Shown here one piece after another: positions 23,665 to 32,337 of a stretch of DNA of 32,337 bases (positions are counted from its first letter, which is position 1; each line of letters opens with the position of its first letter). The stretch covers positions 1 to 32,337 of the forward strand of contig JAUVCN010000024.1 in NCBI GenBank assembly GCA_030595715.1, in the 5' to 3' direction. The translations under genes were made by a program, and so were the position numbers. Source of the DNA: Thermoplasmatales archaeon. GTDB lineage: Archaea; Thermoplasmatota; Penumbrarchaeia; Penumbrarchaeales; Penumbrarchaeaceae. Below the pieces are notes generated by a model, which worked only from the letters and a program-made list of their open reading frames with translations, was not told the origin of the DNA and did not search any database.

Positions 23665-25383
23665 ATGAGGGAGTGGATGAAAAGACCATCTTTATCAGCA
23701 ATTGTTGTTGTTGTAGTATTACTATTTTCCATCATCTTTCTGCTCAAAGGGATAGATGATGTATCTGCTGTTGGGGAGGTGGAGTTCTCCGTAGAGTACG
23801 ACATGGACTATCCAGGTTACGATCATAAGCATTCTGTTGAGCTTCCATTTTCCGAAAGCCCTGATGGAATGACCATCGAGAGTATCGGTTCTACCGAGAT
23901 CTCATTGACCGGAAGAGTGAATGTCACTTCCGAATATCCTCATTATTTTCAGGTCCTTTTGGTGAAATACTACATTTCGGTCCGCGATCATGATTATGAT
24001 GCTCACGACTATGATGGAGATACTATCCACCCGGAATTTACCATGGAACCTTCTCCAATGATGATCACAGGCCTGGGTCCAGGAGAAACAGAGATCATTG
24101 AATTCACACTGACAATGACACTTGATGATCAATTTCAGGGTGGCTGGAATGATATCTGGATAATTTGGTATATTGAAAGCGCAACAGGACCCTACAGAAC
24201 AGATTCACAGGAAGATGAACTTGAGCTGTGGATCGATCCAATTGTTCGTCTGGATCTGATCCCGAGCGAGGACAGAGAGATATTGGTAACATATAATGGG
24301 AACGAGATGTTCGATTTTGATATCGTGAATTCGGGAAACATGATGCAACCATATGTTTGGGGTGATATTACCTGTGGGGAAGACCTTGAAGGAAATGGAA
24401 TATCATCATTGGTTTGGGTTTCCATGGAATATGAGCACCAGGAATATTATGAGACAATGTCCATTCTTATCAGTGCCGATGATGCACTTATTGGTGCACA
24501 ATTCGATATACGCCTTAACCTCTACGATGAAGATAACAACACTTATGATTCAGAGGAAATAGTACTGAAGATCATCGAAATAGTGGACATAGATGATAAA
24601 TCTGATCCGGAGGACCCGGAACCTGAAGATCCTCCTCACGATGATAATGATCCGGAACTTGTCATCGACGTGGATGTTGAAACCTTTCACTACCGGACCT
24701 TCAGAAAGGATGGGAATATATCTGTTGAGATCATCTTAGAAGGAACAACGTCCGGTTGCAACCAGATAGTGATCATGTTCGGAAAAGAATTCAGCGATCC
24801 CATGTATGATCACTCCTGGAAGATCGATACGTTCGATTCGGAATGGGACGGTTTCAGATATGATGGAACCGGCTGCACATATCACATCAAGGAGTTCGAG
24901 GATACTTCCATATCGGGTGATTGGTCCGAATTCTCCCTTCATGTATTCTACACCATTGACCTGGAATACTTCCAGGGGTTGTGGAATAATGAGATACAAG
25001 AGGTGACTGATGATAGCTTCCCGCATATCGGAGATAAAATGATCTTCAATGTAATTGCCATGGATGAGATCAACAGTATTGAAGGAGATATCGGGGCCTG
25101 GGAAGGATACACCTATGTAACTCTCGCCGAGGATCCGAACAGTGCTGATCTTCCATACGATCCACTGACAGATGAGGAATTGGAATTTGCATCAAGAGGG
25201 TTGCTGGCAGTATTGATCACTTTGATCCTGAGTTCGATATTGGTGGCTCTGCTTCCGATCATCGCAACCATTATTGTCGTCGTCATTGTGGTATATGCGA
25301 TATCAAAGAACAGCAAGAAGAAGACAAAGGACACTGCTATCACACATCAAGGTCCTGCCGGGGTCCAGGCAGGATCGCCATAA
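23665..25383 (+). CDS. Surface protein with large acidic ectodomain and C-terminal TM anchor
   Basis: N-terminal TM/signal, Asp/Glu-rich spacer DIDDKSDPEDPEPEDPPHDDNDPE, C-terminal TM (LAVLITLILSSILVALLPIIATIIVVVIVVYAI); ATG 23665 or GTG 23650. Confidence 0.65.
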   Translation: MREWMKRPSLSAIVVVVVLLFSIIFLLKGIDDVSAVGEVEFSVEYDMDYPGYDHKHSVELPFSESPDGMTIESIGSTEISLTGRVNVTSEYPHYFQVLLVKYYISVRDHDYDAHDYDGDTIHPEFTMEPSPMMITGLGPGETEIIEFTLTMTLDDQFQGGWNDIWIIWYIESATGPYRTDSQEDELELWIDPIVRLDLIPSEDREILVTYNGNEMFDFDIVNSGNMMQPYVWGDITCGEDLEGNGISSLVWVSMEYEHQEYYETMSILISADDALIGAQFDIRLNLYDEDNNTYDSEEIVLKIIEIVDIDDKSDPEDPEPEDPPHDDNDPELVIDVDVETFHYRTFRKDGNISVEIILEGTTSGCNQIVIMFGKEFSDPMYDHSWKIDTFDSEWDGFRYDGTGCTYHIKEFEDTSISGDWSEFSLHVFYTIDLEYFQGLWNNEIQEVTDDSFPHIGDKMIFNVIAMDEINSIEGDIGAWEGYTYVTLAEDPNSADLPYDPLTDEELEFASRGLLAVLITLILSSILVALLPIIATIIVVVIVVYAISKNSKKKTKDTAITHQGPAGVQAGSP

Positions 25384-27326
25384 AGCACGTATTCCCACAT
25401 GGCAACAGAAGCCTCGAATGCTTCGTTCGATGAGTCATCGTTCACCCATTTATCTATCATCTCGTTCCTGGAGATCATCAAAAGCTCTCCCGTGGTCATT
25501 CCGCCATTGACGAAGTTCTCCGATATTCTGTCAACCAGATACAGGGCGCCGGTATCGATCAGAAGACCCTGTTCTCCCTGCCCGACCTTGAAAAGACCGT
25601 ATGCAAGTCTCGTGGATCCGATATAGCCGTTCTGACCTGCATGGATGAATGCAAGGGATATCTTGTCATCCTGGTGGTCATCGAGATTGTCCACTCTTCC
25701 TGTTAGACATGCCATGACCGCAGAGAATCCGGGTTTCATGGTCTGGGTGGTGATGAACTTAGCATCGATATTGTCAGCATAGTTGGAATACCAGGCGGAC
25801 TGTAATCCATGGCCACAGTACATCATGTAGTTCATCTTGTCCATCACCATGTCCGCTGTTACATCATTGAGAAGCAAGGATTCCTCTGTTGTGACGAACA
25901 TCCCGCCATCACCCAGGACATCATATTGATACTTCTTCATATGCTTCAGCGCGGCTGGCATCGGGAAAGGTTTGGTGGTTCCCACAAAAACTCCGGCATT
26001 ATCCTTCCAGTCAGGTGATAGGGTGTCGTAGATCCTCTGGTCCACATCGTTGCCCCTCTCGAAATCATACTCGGAATATTCATCGAAGCCCATGGTCCTT
26101 GCATTTAAGAGAGCAGTATCTGTCAGAGACCTTCCAAGGATCCTTCCATATGCGATATCCTGATGTTCATCGCCTTCCGTGTCGGCAAAGTAGTAATCCG
26201 AGGCAATGAAATTCGTATTCGAGAAGAAAACATCATCTCCCCCATCTCCGAAATCCTCATAATGGTAGGGGACGGCAATGGGGTCCCCGACGATCCCAAG
26301 GAATTTCAGATCGAATGCCGAAGTGGAGTTCCCCTCTTCAATGGCATGCAGGACCTTGTCCTTGATGGTATCGGAGTAATTGTTGGCAATCTCGACCGAT
26401 GCTCCCATCTGATTGTAATGGACCCTGTCATCGAAATTCACCCCGATCTCATCTTTCGAATATCCTTTGACAAAGAACATCAGGGCCATTCTGTATGCTG
26501 CAAGTTGAGCTGAAGTTGATGATACGCCCCGAACTGGTAGGTATCCTGGTTCTCCCCATCCATTGTCAATATCATCAGGATTTGTAACTATCATGTAGTC
26601 GGAAGAGTCCCCTTTGGATTCAAGACACCATAGGAAGAATCCATTGTGGCAGGGTTCTGTACCTCCCAGGGCCATGGTCGGGACGCTTAGGAGGGGCCCA
26701 TCGTCCATGGAGATCGCAAATCTAACCCCCAGATCATCCATCAGATCCTCCAGGGGTTCTGAATTCTCTGTTGCGAATACCATGGGGATGTCATAATATG
26801 AGGACAGAGCAACTGCTTTCATTCCGCTTCTGTAGGATGAATAGATCACCAGGAGGTCGGATGCCTGATAGCAATTACGGGCAAAAGATATTGTTGCTTC
26901 TTCGGGAATGGATGGATCCACTTCAAGAGGTTCCCTTGGAGATAGTGAAAGATATCTTTCCAGAGCATCGCCGGTCTCGTCGATCATTATCAAAGGTGTG
27001 TATTCCGGCTGCCCGGAAATGAACCTGATAGATGCAGCAGATATCGCAATGGATGTCTCAAATGCGTTGTCCCTGACAGAATCGATCAGTATCACTTTAT
27101 TTTCAAGGTAGCTGGTCCTGGATGATGTTCCTTCGTTCAATCTGTCCACCCAGATCTTTGATGGAAGTTCCTTATCCCTTGAAATGTCCTCTCCCTTCAT
27201 TGAGATGAACAAGAGACCCGAGATCAGCAGGATGGACACTATACTCACAGCGATGGCGACCTTCCTTTTATCTATTGACATGGAAACCAACCCTTCAAGG
27301 AGCCTTAGATAGAATAATCTTTTCAA
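25347..27326 (-). CDS. C25/gingipain-like clan CD cysteine protease, membrane-anchored
   Basis: Catalytic-type motifs MYCGHGLQSAWY and FSAVMACLTGR, DIAYGRILGRS, C-terminal VLYGDPAWTP; N-terminal TM segment. Confidence 0.75.
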   Translation of the reverse strand: MKRLFYLRLLEGLVSMSIDKRKVAIAVSIVSILLISGLLFISMKGEDISRDKELPSKIWVDRLNEGTSSRTSYLENKVILIDSVRDNAFETSIAISAASIRFISGQPEYTPLIMIDETGDALERYLSLSPREPLEVDPSIPEEATISFARNCYQASDLLVIYSSYRSGMKAVALSSYYDIPMVFATENSEPLEDLMDDLGVRFAISMDDGPLLSVPTMALGGTEPCHNGFFLWCLESKGDSSDYMIVTNPDDIDNGWGEPGYLPVRGVSSTSAQLAAYRMALMFFVKGYSKDEIGVNFDDRVHYNQMGASVEIANNYSDTIKDKVLHAIEEGNSTSAFDLKFLGIVGDPIAVPYHYEDFGDGGDDVFFSNTNFIASDYYFADTEGDEHQDIAYGRILGRSLTDTALLNARTMGFDEYSEYDFERGNDVDQRIYDTLSPDWKDNAGVFVGTTKPFPMPAALKHMKKYQYDVLGDGGMFVTTEESLLLNDVTADMVMDKMNYMMYCGHGLQSAWYSNYADNIDAKFITTQTMKPGFSAVMACLTGRVDNLDDHQDDKISLAFIHAGQNGYIGSTRLAYGLFKVGQGEQGLLIDTGALYLVDRISENFVNGGMTTGELLMISRNEMIDKWVNDDSSNEAFEASVAMWEYVLYGDPAWTPAGP

Positions 27327-27369: not shown

Positions 27370-30354
27370 ATGGAAAGATCCGTTCATGACGATCATGATC
27401 ATAATATCAACTATGACGCGGATTATCGACCTGTTTTCCATGATTTCTACGATCTTATGAGATGGAGGGTATCTAAGATACTGCTTGTATCGAGCCTTTA
27501 CGATGCTTTCACACTCGAGGAGGAAGGTCTCATTTTTGAACAGATCTCAAGCGAATATCGGGACCTCGCGCTCCCGTTCCCACCCCAGGTCATAAGGGTT
27601 TCCACTGCTGAAATGGCACTTCTGGAACTGGAAAGGACACAGTACGATCTGATCATCACCATGGCCAGACTTCCCGATATGGATCCATTTAAATTCGGTA
27701 ATAAAGCAAAGGGTGTTCAGGATGATATCCCTGTTGTGATGTTGCTCACAGATGCCGGGGATATTTCGCTCTTTCACACTCCTGGTAAATATGGTGGCGT
27801 GGACAAGATATTCTTCTGGAATGGGGATTCGGCGCTGTTCCTTGCTATCGTGAAGTACGTGGAAGACCAGAAGAATATAGTGCATGATATCAAGACCGGT
27901 CTTGTCAGGGTGATCCTGGTCGTTGAGAACGATCCAAGATATTACTCGCTCTTTTTACCATTGATCCTGACCGTTATCGTCAGACAGACAAAGAACCTGA
28001 TCCAGGAGGGGCTCAACGAGCAGGAGAAGATGCTTAGGAAAAGAGCCAGACCCAAGATCCTTCTGGCCGAGACATATGATGAGGCATTGGAATTGTATGA
28101 ACGATACAAGGGCAACATGCTTGGCATCATTTCTGATGTGTCTTATCCAAAGAAGGGAAAGAAGTTCCAGAACGCCGGTTTTTCTCTGGCGAAGGAGGTC
28201 GATCCGGATATCCCCATGATCCTCCAGTCCAGCCAGCTTGAGAATGAAATAAAGGCCAAACGGCTGGGGATACCGTTCATCAACAAGAATTCGGAGACAC
28301 TTCTGCAGGAGATCAGAGAATGGTTCCAGACCAGCCTTGGTTTCGGCCCATTCTTGTTCAGTACACCGGAGGGAAAATTCATCGGTCATGCAAATGATCT
28401 GAAGGAGTTCCTGAATGTGATCGAGGATATCTCTCCGGAATCGATGAACTTCCATGGAAGGGCCAATGCTTTTTCCAACTGGTTCTTCTCAAGAGGTGAG
28501 ATAGACCTCGCCAGAAAGCTCAGGAAGAAGAAGGTCTCGGACTTCCCTTCAGGGGAGAAAATGAAGAGATATCTTGTGAAACAGATCAAGGATTCCCATC
28601 GAAGGAAGCAGCAAGGGATCATAATCGATTTCGAGAATCAAACATTCGAGTTCGAAGGGACAATAACACGTCTTGGAGGAGGTTCCCTAGGAGGAAAAGG
28701 ACGGGGGATCGCATTCCTCTCAACCTTGATACATCAGTCAAATCTGGGTTCATTGATCAAAGGATGTTCGATAAAGGTTCCCGCCTCATTGATCCTCGGA
28801 ACAGATATCTTTTCCAAGTTCATGGAAAACAATGGTTTCAATGAAATGTCCATGGAGAAATTGAATGATGATAATATAAGAGAACTATTCTTGAAGTCAC
28901 CATTGGATTATGAGACCATGGAATCACTCGCAATATTCCTCGCTCATGTGGATTATCCGATAGCGGTAAGATCATCATCACTGCTTGAGGATTCCCAGAA
29001 CCAACCCTTTGCGGGTATCTATTCCACATATATTCTGCCCAATAGATGTGAAGATGATGAACAGAGGTTGAAGGAACTTGTCGATGCGATCAAACTCGTG
29101 TACGCTTCAGCATTTTTCAAGGATGCCAGAGCATACATCCAATCAACGGTCCATGTCCAGGAAGAGGAAAAGATGGCGGTGGTCATCCAGAAACTGATCG
29201 GAACCGAACATAAGGATCACTTTTATCCTCTATTCTCCGGGGTGGCCCAGACATTCAACTTCTACCCTGTATCACCCCTGAAGAGAGACGATGGCATAGC
29301 AAGTATCGCTCTTGGTCTGGGGAGGATAGTTGTCGAAGGTGAGCAGGTCATGAGCTTCTCTCCGGAGCATCCGAAAGTGATCCCCGGATTCGCCAACGTT
29401 GATGATGTATTGAGCAATTCACAGAACCACTTTTACTCATTGGATATGTCAAAAGTTTGTTTCGATCTCAAACAAGGAGAGGATTGCACTCTCTTAAAAA
29501 GTAACATCTCCAAAGCGGAGGAAGATGGGGTCCTCGACTATCTGGCCTCCACATATGATGTGAATGATAACAGGATACGTGACGGTGCTGGAAGGACGGG
29601 ACCCAAAGTGATCACATTTTCCGGGATCCTTAACTATAATATGGTTCCCCTCGACAAGATCATCAAGGCGATCCTTCAGATAGGAACAAAAGGCATGGGT
29701 AGACCTGTCGAGATAGAGTTTGCAGGAATAATCAACGAGAAGGAAAAACCGGAATTCTATGTTCTTCAGATCAGGCCCCTTGTCACATTGAAGGAAAGGA
29801 CCCAGGTCAGGATCGATAAGAAAGAAGAGGAGAGTTCTATCATTCTATCGAATAAAGCCATGGGAAATGGGGTCATCCAGGATATCAGGGATATAATTCT
29901 TGTCACCCCTGATTCCTTTGATAATATTCGAACAGTGGAGATAGCAGATGAGATAGGGAGGATCAATGAGCAATTGGGTGATAAGCAGTATATCCTCGTT
30001 GGGCCAGGGAGATGGGGGACCAGGGACAGATTCTTAGGAATTCCGGTCCAGTGGAATCAGATATCCGGAGCCAGATGTATGGTGGAAATACAGCTCAAGG
30101 ACTTTCGAGTAGATCCATCTCACGGTACCCATTTTTTCCATAATCTAACATCACTTGGCATTCCCTATTTTACGGTCCAATATTCTTCGAAGGATCAGAG
30201 GGTGGATTGGGATTGGTTGCTCTCAAGGGAACACGAACCTCGTGGAGATATGGTAAGGCACATCCATCTCGATGATCCGATCATGATCAAGGTGGATGGC
30301 AAGAAGGGAAAGGGTATAATTTTCCGGCAGGAGGACCCGGATGAATATTCATAA
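27370..30354 (+). CDS. Tandem receiver-like domains fused to PPDK/PEP-synthase ATP-binding domain
   Basis: Receiver-like LLGIISDVSYPKKG and degenerate first copy (YDLIITMARLPDMD); ATP-grasp motifs LGGGSLGGKGRGIAFLS, IAVRSSSLLEDSQNQPFAGIYSTY, FYVLQIRPLV. Confidence 0.85.
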   Translation: MERSVHDDHDHNINYDADYRPVFHDFYDLMRWRVSKILLVSSLYDAFTLEEEGLIFEQISSEYRDLALPFPPQVIRVSTAEMALLELERTQYDLIITMARLPDMDPFKFGNKAKGVQDDIPVVMLLTDAGDISLFHTPGKYGGVDKIFFWNGDSALFLAIVKYVEDQKNIVHDIKTGLVRVILVVENDPRYYSLFLPLILTVIVRQTKNLIQEGLNEQEKMLRKRARPKILLAETYDEALELYERYKGNMLGIISDVSYPKKGKKFQNAGFSLAKEVDPDIPMILQSSQLENEIKAKRLGIPFINKNSETLLQEIREWFQTSLGFGPFLFSTPEGKFIGHANDLKEFLNVIEDISPESMNFHGRANAFSNWFFSRGEIDLARKLRKKKVSDFPSGEKMKRYLVKQIKDSHRRKQQGIIIDFENQTFEFEGTITRLGGGSLGGKGRGIAFLSTLIHQSNLGSLIKGCSIKVPASLILGTDIFSKFMENNGFNEMSMEKLNDDNIRELFLKSPLDYETMESLAIFLAHVDYPIAVRSSSLLEDSQNQPFAGIYSTYILPNRCEDDEQRLKELVDAIKLVYASAFFKDARAYIQSTVHVQEEEKMAVVIQKLIGTEHKDHFYPLFSGVAQTFNFYPVSPLKRDDGIASIALGLGRIVVEGEQVMSFSPEHPKVIPGFANVDDVLSNSQNHFYSLDMSKVCFDLKQGEDCTLLKSNISKAEEDGVLDYLASTYDVNDNRIRDGAGRTGPKVITFSGILNYNMVPLDKIIKAILQIGTKGMGRPVEIEFAGIINEKEKPEFYVLQIRPLVTLKERTQVRIDKKEEESSIILSNKAMGNGVIQDIRDIILVTPDSFDNIRTVEIADEIGRINEQLGDKQYILVGPGRWGTRDRFLGIPVQWNQISGARCMVEIQLKDFRVDPSHGTHFFHNLTSLGIPYFTVQYSSKDQRVDWDWLLSREHEPRGDMVRHIHLDDPIMIKVDGKKGKGIIFRQEDPDEYS

Positions 30355-30391: not shown

Positions 30392-30589
30392 TCAAAGCTC
30401 TCTATAATCTGCAGGTATCAATTTCTTGGCAATAGGATCACCATAATGCGGATTCACTTTGATCAATTCAACCTTCTTCTTAATGGAATTCAAAATGGAT
30501 CTCTCAATTTTTGATTCTTCAGAATGTTCATTCAGGTGACGATATGCTTCTTCCGCTTCTTCAGAAAGAATGACCCGGACTAATTTCAT
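30392..30589 (-). pseudogene. Truncated RelE/ParE-family toxin
   Basis: RelE-like N-terminal half ending YGDPIAKKLIPADYREL*; the C-terminal strands expected of this archaeal family are absent. Confidence 0.6.
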
Positions 30590-30864
30590 AGTTCAAGCCC
30601 CTTGGAAATTGCCTTTCTTAGATTTGGATTAGGATTGAATATCCAGGTTATCCCATCAGCTGTGAAAATGATCTTGTTACTTTCTTGGAGATATCTTAAA
30701 ATGATCTTGAGTTTGTTGTGATTTACCTTTCTTGGGAGTCTTCTTTTCAACTCCGCAACTTTAATCACACTTTCATCAATATTCCGAAGTACCTCTTCCA
30801 CCATGATCACGGTATTCAATGTGGGTGCATGTTCAAGCATCGGAATAGCATCAGAGGATATCAT
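30586..30864 (-). CDS. Winged-helix antitoxin-type protein paired with the RelE-like ORF
   Basis: TLNTVIMVEEVLRNIDESVIKVAELKRRLPRKVNHNKLKIILRYLQESNKIIFTADGITWIFNPNPNLRKAISKGLEL; 4-nt overlap with the toxin ORF. Confidence 0.7.
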   Translation of the reverse strand: MISSDAIPMLEHAPTLNTVIMVEEVLRNIDESVIKVAELKRRLPRKVNHNKLKIILRYLQESNKIIFTADGITWIFNPNPNLRKAISKGLEL

Positions 30865-31152: not shown

Positions 31153-32337
31153 TCAATCAGATTTGAAATTCTCAGGTACTACGAAATTTTTCTGATTTTT
31201 CTCAACAGTATACACCAACATAACCAACTTACGTGAACAAGCAATAATAGATGTCCAGTGAGATTTTCCTTTACTCCTCATCTCATAGTACTTTTGCTTG
31301 ATCACTGGATTATGCTTGATTGATATCATTGCTGCATTCAACAATGATGTCCTGAGATACTTGTTGCCTCGCCTGGAAATATGGCCATGCCGATACGCCA
31401 TCTTGCCAGACTGGGATACTACCGGATCCAGACCAGCATAGGCAGCAACAGAATCCCTGTTCTTGAAACGGTTCACATCACCCAGCATACCAAGGATGGT
31501 TGCTCCAGTGACGTAACCAATGCCAGGGATGGACATTGCATACGGCTTATACTGATCAATCGCTTTGTGTATGTTTTTTTCAATATGTTTTCTCTGTTCA
31601 AGCAACATATCATACTGACCAAGGATATGCTTGACGTTCATCACAAGAGGTCTCTTGTAATGCTCCGGACAGGTTGAATTCTTGAATGCGTCCAATACAG
31701 ATCTCATCCTGGATTGTCTGGTGTCCCTTCTATTGTTGTTCCTGATGAATATCTGTTCAAGTTCTTCCTCAGATATTTCAAACAGTTTGGTATGTTTTAT
31801 GGTTTTTTTCAGTATCTGAAGAGATGTTACCGAAGTGATATCCTTGAACACCTCATCATACCCTGGACACAATACGGTTAAAGCTGTCCTCAGCTCCAAT
31901 TTCAATACAGAGATCTTCTCAACAATACGATGATATGATGTTGCCAACTCCTTCATTTCCAACTTACCAGGGTCATTATTAAACCGTAAATTATTCTCTA
32001 TCAGGTCCAGTTTCACAGCATCGGCTATCACTTCTGCATCTACTTTGTCTGTTTTAGTTTTCCGAATTCTTCTCTGTCTGAGAGCATAGGTCTCCAGAGG
32101 ATTGTACAATCTCACATGGTATTCCTTATCAATGAGATAATGCAAAAGGTTCCTGTGGTAGACTCCAGTTGCTTCCATTGCGATCAATGGTTTTCTATCA
32201 ACAGATAATGATTGAATATCGTTTATCAGGCGATCCATATCATGTTTTTTCTGTTGATATGTTCTTGCTTTGATCAGCTTCTGGCCGTTCTCATCCTTGA
32301 TACATACATCGAATTTGATCTTCGATATATCTATTCC
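31153..32337 (-). CDS. IS110-family DEDD transposase, 5' end off the window
   Basis: Frame stays open to the window edge, giving GIDISKIKFDVCIKDENGQKLIKARTYQQKKHD upstream of the listed Met; C-terminal IPGIGYVTGATILGMLGDVNRFKNRDSVAAYAGLDPVVSQSGK...ISRRGNKYLRTSLLNAA. Confidence 0.93.
   Translation of the reverse strand, partial: GIDISKIKFDVCIKDENGQKLIKARTYQQKKHDMDRLINDIQSLSVDRKPLIAMEATGVYHRNLLHYLIDKEYHVRLYNPLETYALRQRRIRKTKTDKVDAEVIADAVKLDLIENNLRFNNDPGKLEMKELATSYHRIVEKISVLKLELRTALTVLCPGYDEVFKDITSVTSLQILKKTIKHTKLFEISEEELEQIFIRNNNRRDTRQSRMRSVLDAFKNSTCPEHYKRPLVMNVKHILGQYDMLLEQRKHIEKNIHKAIDQYKPYAMSIPGIGYVTGATILGMLGDVNRFKNRDSVAAYAGLDPVVSQSGKMAYRHGHISRRGNKYLRTSLLNAAMISIKHNPVIKQKYYEMRSKGKSHWTSIIACSRKLVMLVYTVEKNQKNFVVPENFKSD

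Follow-up and report, generated by a model that had tools for sequence, protein, structure and literature searches.

A 994-residue protein of a Thermoplasmatales archaeon belongs to a family whose genes are tied to those for glutamate dehydrogenase (GDH), and we tentatively propose that it is a receiver-gated ATP-grasp regulator dedicated to this enzyme. Since the family genes are tied to GDH genes, GDH is the likely target pathway, and we are fairly confident that the family works in some manner for GDH or for metabolism closely tied to it. From the linkage we suspect a form of control over ammonia and glutamate metabolism that has so far gone unrecognised. In databases the family is labelled only "PEP/pyruvate-binding domain-containing protein", and the "PEP synthase-like" label assigned automatically gives a false impression of its members. 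Neither Pfam, NCBIfam nor the literature searched gives the family a defined reaction, an outcome that the earlier note on this DNA had named as a check on its reading, and the full-text literature, with most subscription journals not covered, held no description of the family or its link to GDH.

The linkage emerged from the genes co-occurring with homologs, a comparison proposed in the earlier note. When neighbours were clustered, the commonest gene family, present at 50 of the 90 loci against 16 for the next, proved to be GDH. It was present in 48 of the 80 sampled contig loci and was the direct neighbour in 42. Counted over the sampled contig loci plus the archaeal loci, GDH was found within 1.5 kb of 63 of the 87 assessable family genes, which marks the linkage as a tendency of the family and not as a defining residue-level feature. 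With genomes of about 3 Mb each carrying about two GDH genes, the count expected by chance within this distance is estimated to be well under one. Relative to the family gene, the 63 GDH genes were upstream on the same strand (33), downstream on the same strand (14), downstream on the opposite strand (12) or upstream on the opposite strand (4), and these four arrangements require at least 16 changes on the family tree. The proportion linked, the direct adjacency and the repeated rearrangement all favour a regulator of GDH.

The linkage occurs in both bacteria and archaea and for two GDH subfamilies, each with its own family partners, which also favours the regulatory reading. On contig 46 of the host (locus L021) paralogue A and then paralogue B come after a GDH of the 415-residue type, and in another archaeon (L178) a single run comprises GDH450, the orthologue of our protein, GDH415, paralogue A and paralogue B. 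GDH and family genes alternate in loci of the Ignavibacteria type (L060, L081 and L106), and in Parabacteroides distasonis the gene for WP_041525632.1 is divergently adjacent to gdhA. No fusion of GDH with a family protein was seen in the loci examined; a 1321-residue frame in L098 considered as such a fusion overlaps another frame and looks spurious. Against a GDH regulator, gene linkage shows neither physical contact nor modification, we know of no PPDK_N protein that acts as a protein kinase, and 24 of the 87 assessable members, as well as the copy described here, are not beside GDH.

This copy lies in a window of 32,337 nucleotides (the whole stretch of DNA that was analysed), and no GDH is found beside the gene at 27370-30354. 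The host GDH of about 450 residues sits on a different contig, and a search downstream of the gene for a GDH remnant found none. Since GDH is directly downstream and convergent in relatives of the gene (L002, L004 and L036), a rearrangement has probably broken the linkage here; the host's own paralogues A and B retain it. The surrounding features are as follows.

25347-27326, reverse strand: C25-family peptidase (E=3.1e-17), upstream and divergent across a very short gap
30392-30589 and 30586-30864, reverse strand: small overlapping pair of open reading frames between the gene and the transposase
31153-32238, reverse strand: IS110-type transposase near the contig end

The transposase may have caused the loss of linkage. 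The peptidase is not kept as a neighbour in relatives. The overlapping pair resembles a toxin-antitoxin module, with a weak ParE match (E=0.023) below the cut-off, and the other genes of the window include PcrB, NFACT and a TrmB-type regulator.

The open reading frame itself is real, and all of the motifs quoted in the earlier note were found in its translation. Its layout is given below.

27370..30354, forward strand: whole gene, 994 amino acids, ATG start; predicted pseudo-receiver, receiver, linker, PPDK_N ATP-grasp domain and new C-terminal domain, in that order
27469..27900, forward strand: receiver 1, residues about 34-177, predicted pseudo-receiver (AlphaFold2 model and alignment)
27661-27663, forward strand: Met98 at the phospho-Asp position of receiver 1 (alignment)
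27907..28335, forward strand: receiver 2, residues about 180-322, active-site set complete (AlphaFold2 model and alignment)
28135-28137, forward strand: D256 of receiver 2 (alignment)
28336..28659, forward strand: linker, residues about 323-430, mostly helical (AlphaFold2 model)
28675..29832, forward strand: PPDK_N ATP-grasp domain, residues about 436-821 (Pfam, AlphaFold2 model and alignment)
29833..30339, forward strand: C-terminal domain, residues about 822-990, alpha/beta, without a known family or fold match (AlphaFold model)
30001..30018, forward strand: GPGRWG motif, residues 878-883 (alignment)
30124..30138, forward strand: G-[ST]-H-F-F motif, residues 919-923 (alignment)
30130-30132, forward strand: His921 (alignment)

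The domain order and the invariant residues are common to 93 relatives, mostly 37-58% identical to the protein with the farthest at 27%, and this sharing, judged from the sequences, is no chance pattern. With the alignment of these relatives as input, AlphaFold2 modelled the full-length protein confidently along the whole chain (mean pLDDT 89.9, pTM 0.86). Both of the receivers claimed in the earlier note have clear folds in the model, but only the second is intact. Receiver 1 matched Pfam weakly (E=0.007, under the gathering score) and is predicted to be a pseudo-receiver, since its phospho-Asp position holds Met98 here and Asp in none of the relatives in the 93-row alignment. In receiver 2 the alignment shows the active-site set to be complete (E186, D/N187, D256, S/T287 and K306), D256 being kept in 88 of the 89 members having any residue at that position. 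The linker gave a weak match to DUF5752, below the cut-off, and neither Pfam nor the model placed a response-regulator output domain of known kind (DNA binding, GGDEF, PglZ etc.) after the receivers. The ATP-grasp domain proved as complete as the earlier note had described it: Pfam matched PPDK_N at residues 440-821 (E=3.5e-40), and K443, R534, E783 and Q800, which we take to be the equivalents of the PPDK catalytic residues, are present in 93 of 93 rows. The conservation of receiver 2 and of the ATP-grasp residues favours a regulator of GDH. A role in defence was rejected, no PADLOC anti-phage model having been matched.

The C-terminus, which the earlier note was unable to assign, is a mixed alpha/beta domain of about 170 residues that was again modelled confidently by itself (AlphaFold, pLDDT 91.9). 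Across 94 members Pfam gave it no consistent match, a PDB profile search found no credible sequence relative, and Foldseek found nothing at E<=0.001 among either PDB structures or viral structure libraries; a viral fold was rejected on the latter result. The domain is present in 47 of 194 Thermoplasmatota genomes, and every intact long frame carrying it that was scanned for domains also has PPDK_N. G880, R881, G890, E906, G919, H921, F922 and F923 are invariant (93 of 93 rows), and all of these except G890 and E906 belong to the PGRWGT and DPSHGTHFFHN motifs picked out in the earlier note. His921 is a candidate phosphate acceptor, and it could instead be structural.

At least 583 family matches were confirmed in species-representative genomes, the best 80 of them coming from Bacteroidota, Ignavibacteriota, Acidobacteriota, Thermodesulfobacteriota, Fidelibacterota and many other phyla. 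The nearest named relative among the matches listed is from Euryarchaeota archaeon S2_100 (51%). This relative and the PcrB, NFACT and TrmB-type genes near ours mark the host as an archaeon, most likely one of the Thermoplasmatota. In a tree made with FastTree only, most archaeal sequences grouped with our gene; since others fall among bacterial ones, transfer between bacteria and archaea, in one direction or the other, is likely. Some members carry further domains, and two relatives are diverged.

L048, L049, L052, L054, L057, L065, L072, L078, L079, L087, L093, L096, L097 and L115: N-terminal GAF-like extension
L021:6423-9641 (host contig 46): paralogue B, 1073 amino acids, after GDH and paralogue A
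L190:4592-7291 and L191:4863-7454: diverged relatives of 860-900 amino acids in a separate archaeal lineage

The extension is conserved in Bacteroidales members and spans 190-330 residues; it was read as GAF-like from the alignment and matched no Pfam family. Three members (L065, L078 and L097) have it twice, and in L087 a PAS domain stands in front of it. Paralogue B has a GAF-like N-terminus, PPDK_N and the same C-terminal motifs, followed by a nucleotidyltransferase domain (PF01909, E=6.7e-8), and may be a second signalling enzyme belonging to this system. The diverged relatives are closest to paralogue B (about 32%) and match the C-terminal domain weakly; PPDK_N was confirmed in the L190 protein. 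Genes of the NfnA/NfnB type follow in L172, similarly placed genes in L037, L174 and L176 match them in size, and 2-oxoacid:ferredoxin oxidoreductase is a neighbour in some Bacteroidales. Taken with the fused inputs, these neighbours suggest signalling connected with 2-oxoglutarate, glutamate and NADPH. Both the nearby NADPH-linked Nfn and oxidoreductase genes and the fused GAF-like and PAS inputs favour a GDH regulator, as does the finding that the host handles PEP metabolism with another, PPDK-like enzyme and has no free-standing phospho-His protein.

As a GDH regulator the protein might work as follows. Upstream, either receiver 2 would be phosphorylated at Asp256 or the pseudo-receiver would bind a small molecule, and this signal would open or close the ATP-grasp domain, with receiver 2 as the gate. 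In Bacteroidales, the fused GAF-like and sometimes PAS input would let a signal enter the same chain. The ATP-grasp domain would then pass on a phosphoryl or pyrophosphoryl group, probably via the C-terminal domain, where His921 would stand in for the missing swivelling phospho-His, and transfer of the group to the adjacent GDH, or to an effector linked with GDH, would switch ammonia assimilation on or off. That the family is in this specific sense a new class of regulatory phosphotransferase, acting from a receiver-gated ATP-grasp through the invariant His of a new domain onto GDH, is doubtful. The earlier note had suggested a receiver-gated signalling phosphotransferase or ligase with an acceptor other than pyruvate; neither a swivelling phospho-His domain nor a reaction already assigned to the family was found, and the suggestion is partly supported, phosphotransfer itself being putative. 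GDH joins carbon and nitrogen metabolism in very many microbes, gut Bacteroidales included, and the control of its flux is poorly known outside a few models. If the proposal is true, bacteria and archaea have an unrecognised post-translational switch on ammonia assimilation. Since signalling, ATP-using and new domains are combined with strong GDH linkage in hundreds of species, it is testable in culturable strains.

We consider it rather unlikely that the protein is instead a metabolic enzyme, whose ATP-grasp domain acts on a small molecule from the glutamate, 2-oxoglutarate or ammonia pathways by phosphorylating or activating it while the C-terminal domain binds the acceptor and the receiver only tunes the activity. 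The well-studied PPDK_N proteins (PEP synthase, PPDK, rifampin phosphotransferase and prodigiosin ligase) all act on small molecules, and our protein matches NCBIfam models of these weakly. The invariant ATP-grasp residues and the metabolic enzymes encoded nearby would suit such an enzyme as well. However, two receivers and fused GAF-like or PAS domains are unusual in a plain enzyme, two GDH types with separate side-by-side partners are better explained by cognate regulators, and Pfam, PDB profiles and Foldseek revealed no acceptor domain of known kind.

A sensor scaffold with little or no catalytic activity, in which the ATP-grasp domain reads ATP/AMP, the receivers read a signal and GDH is altered by binding alone, seems distinctly unlikely. 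The pseudo-receiver suggests binding of a ligand or protein without phosphorylation, and a partner role is all that the GDH linkage needs, but the strict retention of the ATP-grasp residues and His921 in every row suggests catalysis.

It is very improbable that the C-terminal domain is a swivelling phospho-His domain in strongly diverged form, which would make the protein a PEP-synthase-like phosphotransferase lacking only the PEP barrel: the domain directly follows PPDK_N, starts with a GNG loop and ends in DGxxG as swivelling domains do, its His is at a helix start with H-x7-LGIP spacing and falls near the phospho-His in a forced alignment, but that spacing occurs in our sequence only, the LGIP not being conserved across the family, and the idea, which the spacing and the terminal DGxxG had prompted, was unsupported by Pfam (no PF00391 match in the protein or any of 94 members), PDB profiles, Foldseek (no swivelling domain among the 50 best PDB matches) or hhalign. 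The last comparison, made against 37 swivelling domains with block-shuffled and positive controls, gave a probability of about 1%, equalled by 11 of 100 shuffled controls, and a genuine swivelling domain scored 99%. In agreement with the earlier note, no such domain was found, and no PEP/pyruvate-binding barrel either, for which Pfam gave no match in the protein. Supply of a phospho-His domain in trans was rejected, since the host has no free-standing phospho-His protein and its sole PF00391 protein is its own PPDK-like enzyme.

The top PDB matches to the full model were the HpeI ATP-grasp chain and tandem receivers of the PleD type. HpeI from Rhodococcus rhodochrous (PDB 9goj, E=4.3e-10), the best of these, consists of an ATP-grasp chain on its own and was deposited under the name "phosphoenolpyruvate synthase". 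Like the family protein it is without a swivelling domain of its own; it differs in lacking both the receivers and the family's C-terminal domain. In two-subunit enzymes of this kind a phospho-His partner acts in trans, and the host genome offers no equivalent of such a partner. The receiver pair folds like that of PleD-type regulators, but the family keeps only one receiver intact, receiver 1 being without its Asp, and the output is an ATP-grasp and a new domain instead of GGDEF or DNA binding. The P. distasonis protein WP_041525632.1 is a full-length bacterial member of the family, 39% identical and bearing a generic name only. With PEP synthase and PPDK (PF01326) the family shares the ATP-grasp domain and its conserved residues; it differs from them in the absence of both the swivelling phospho-His domain and the PEP barrel, and adds two N-terminal receivers and a new C-terminal domain.
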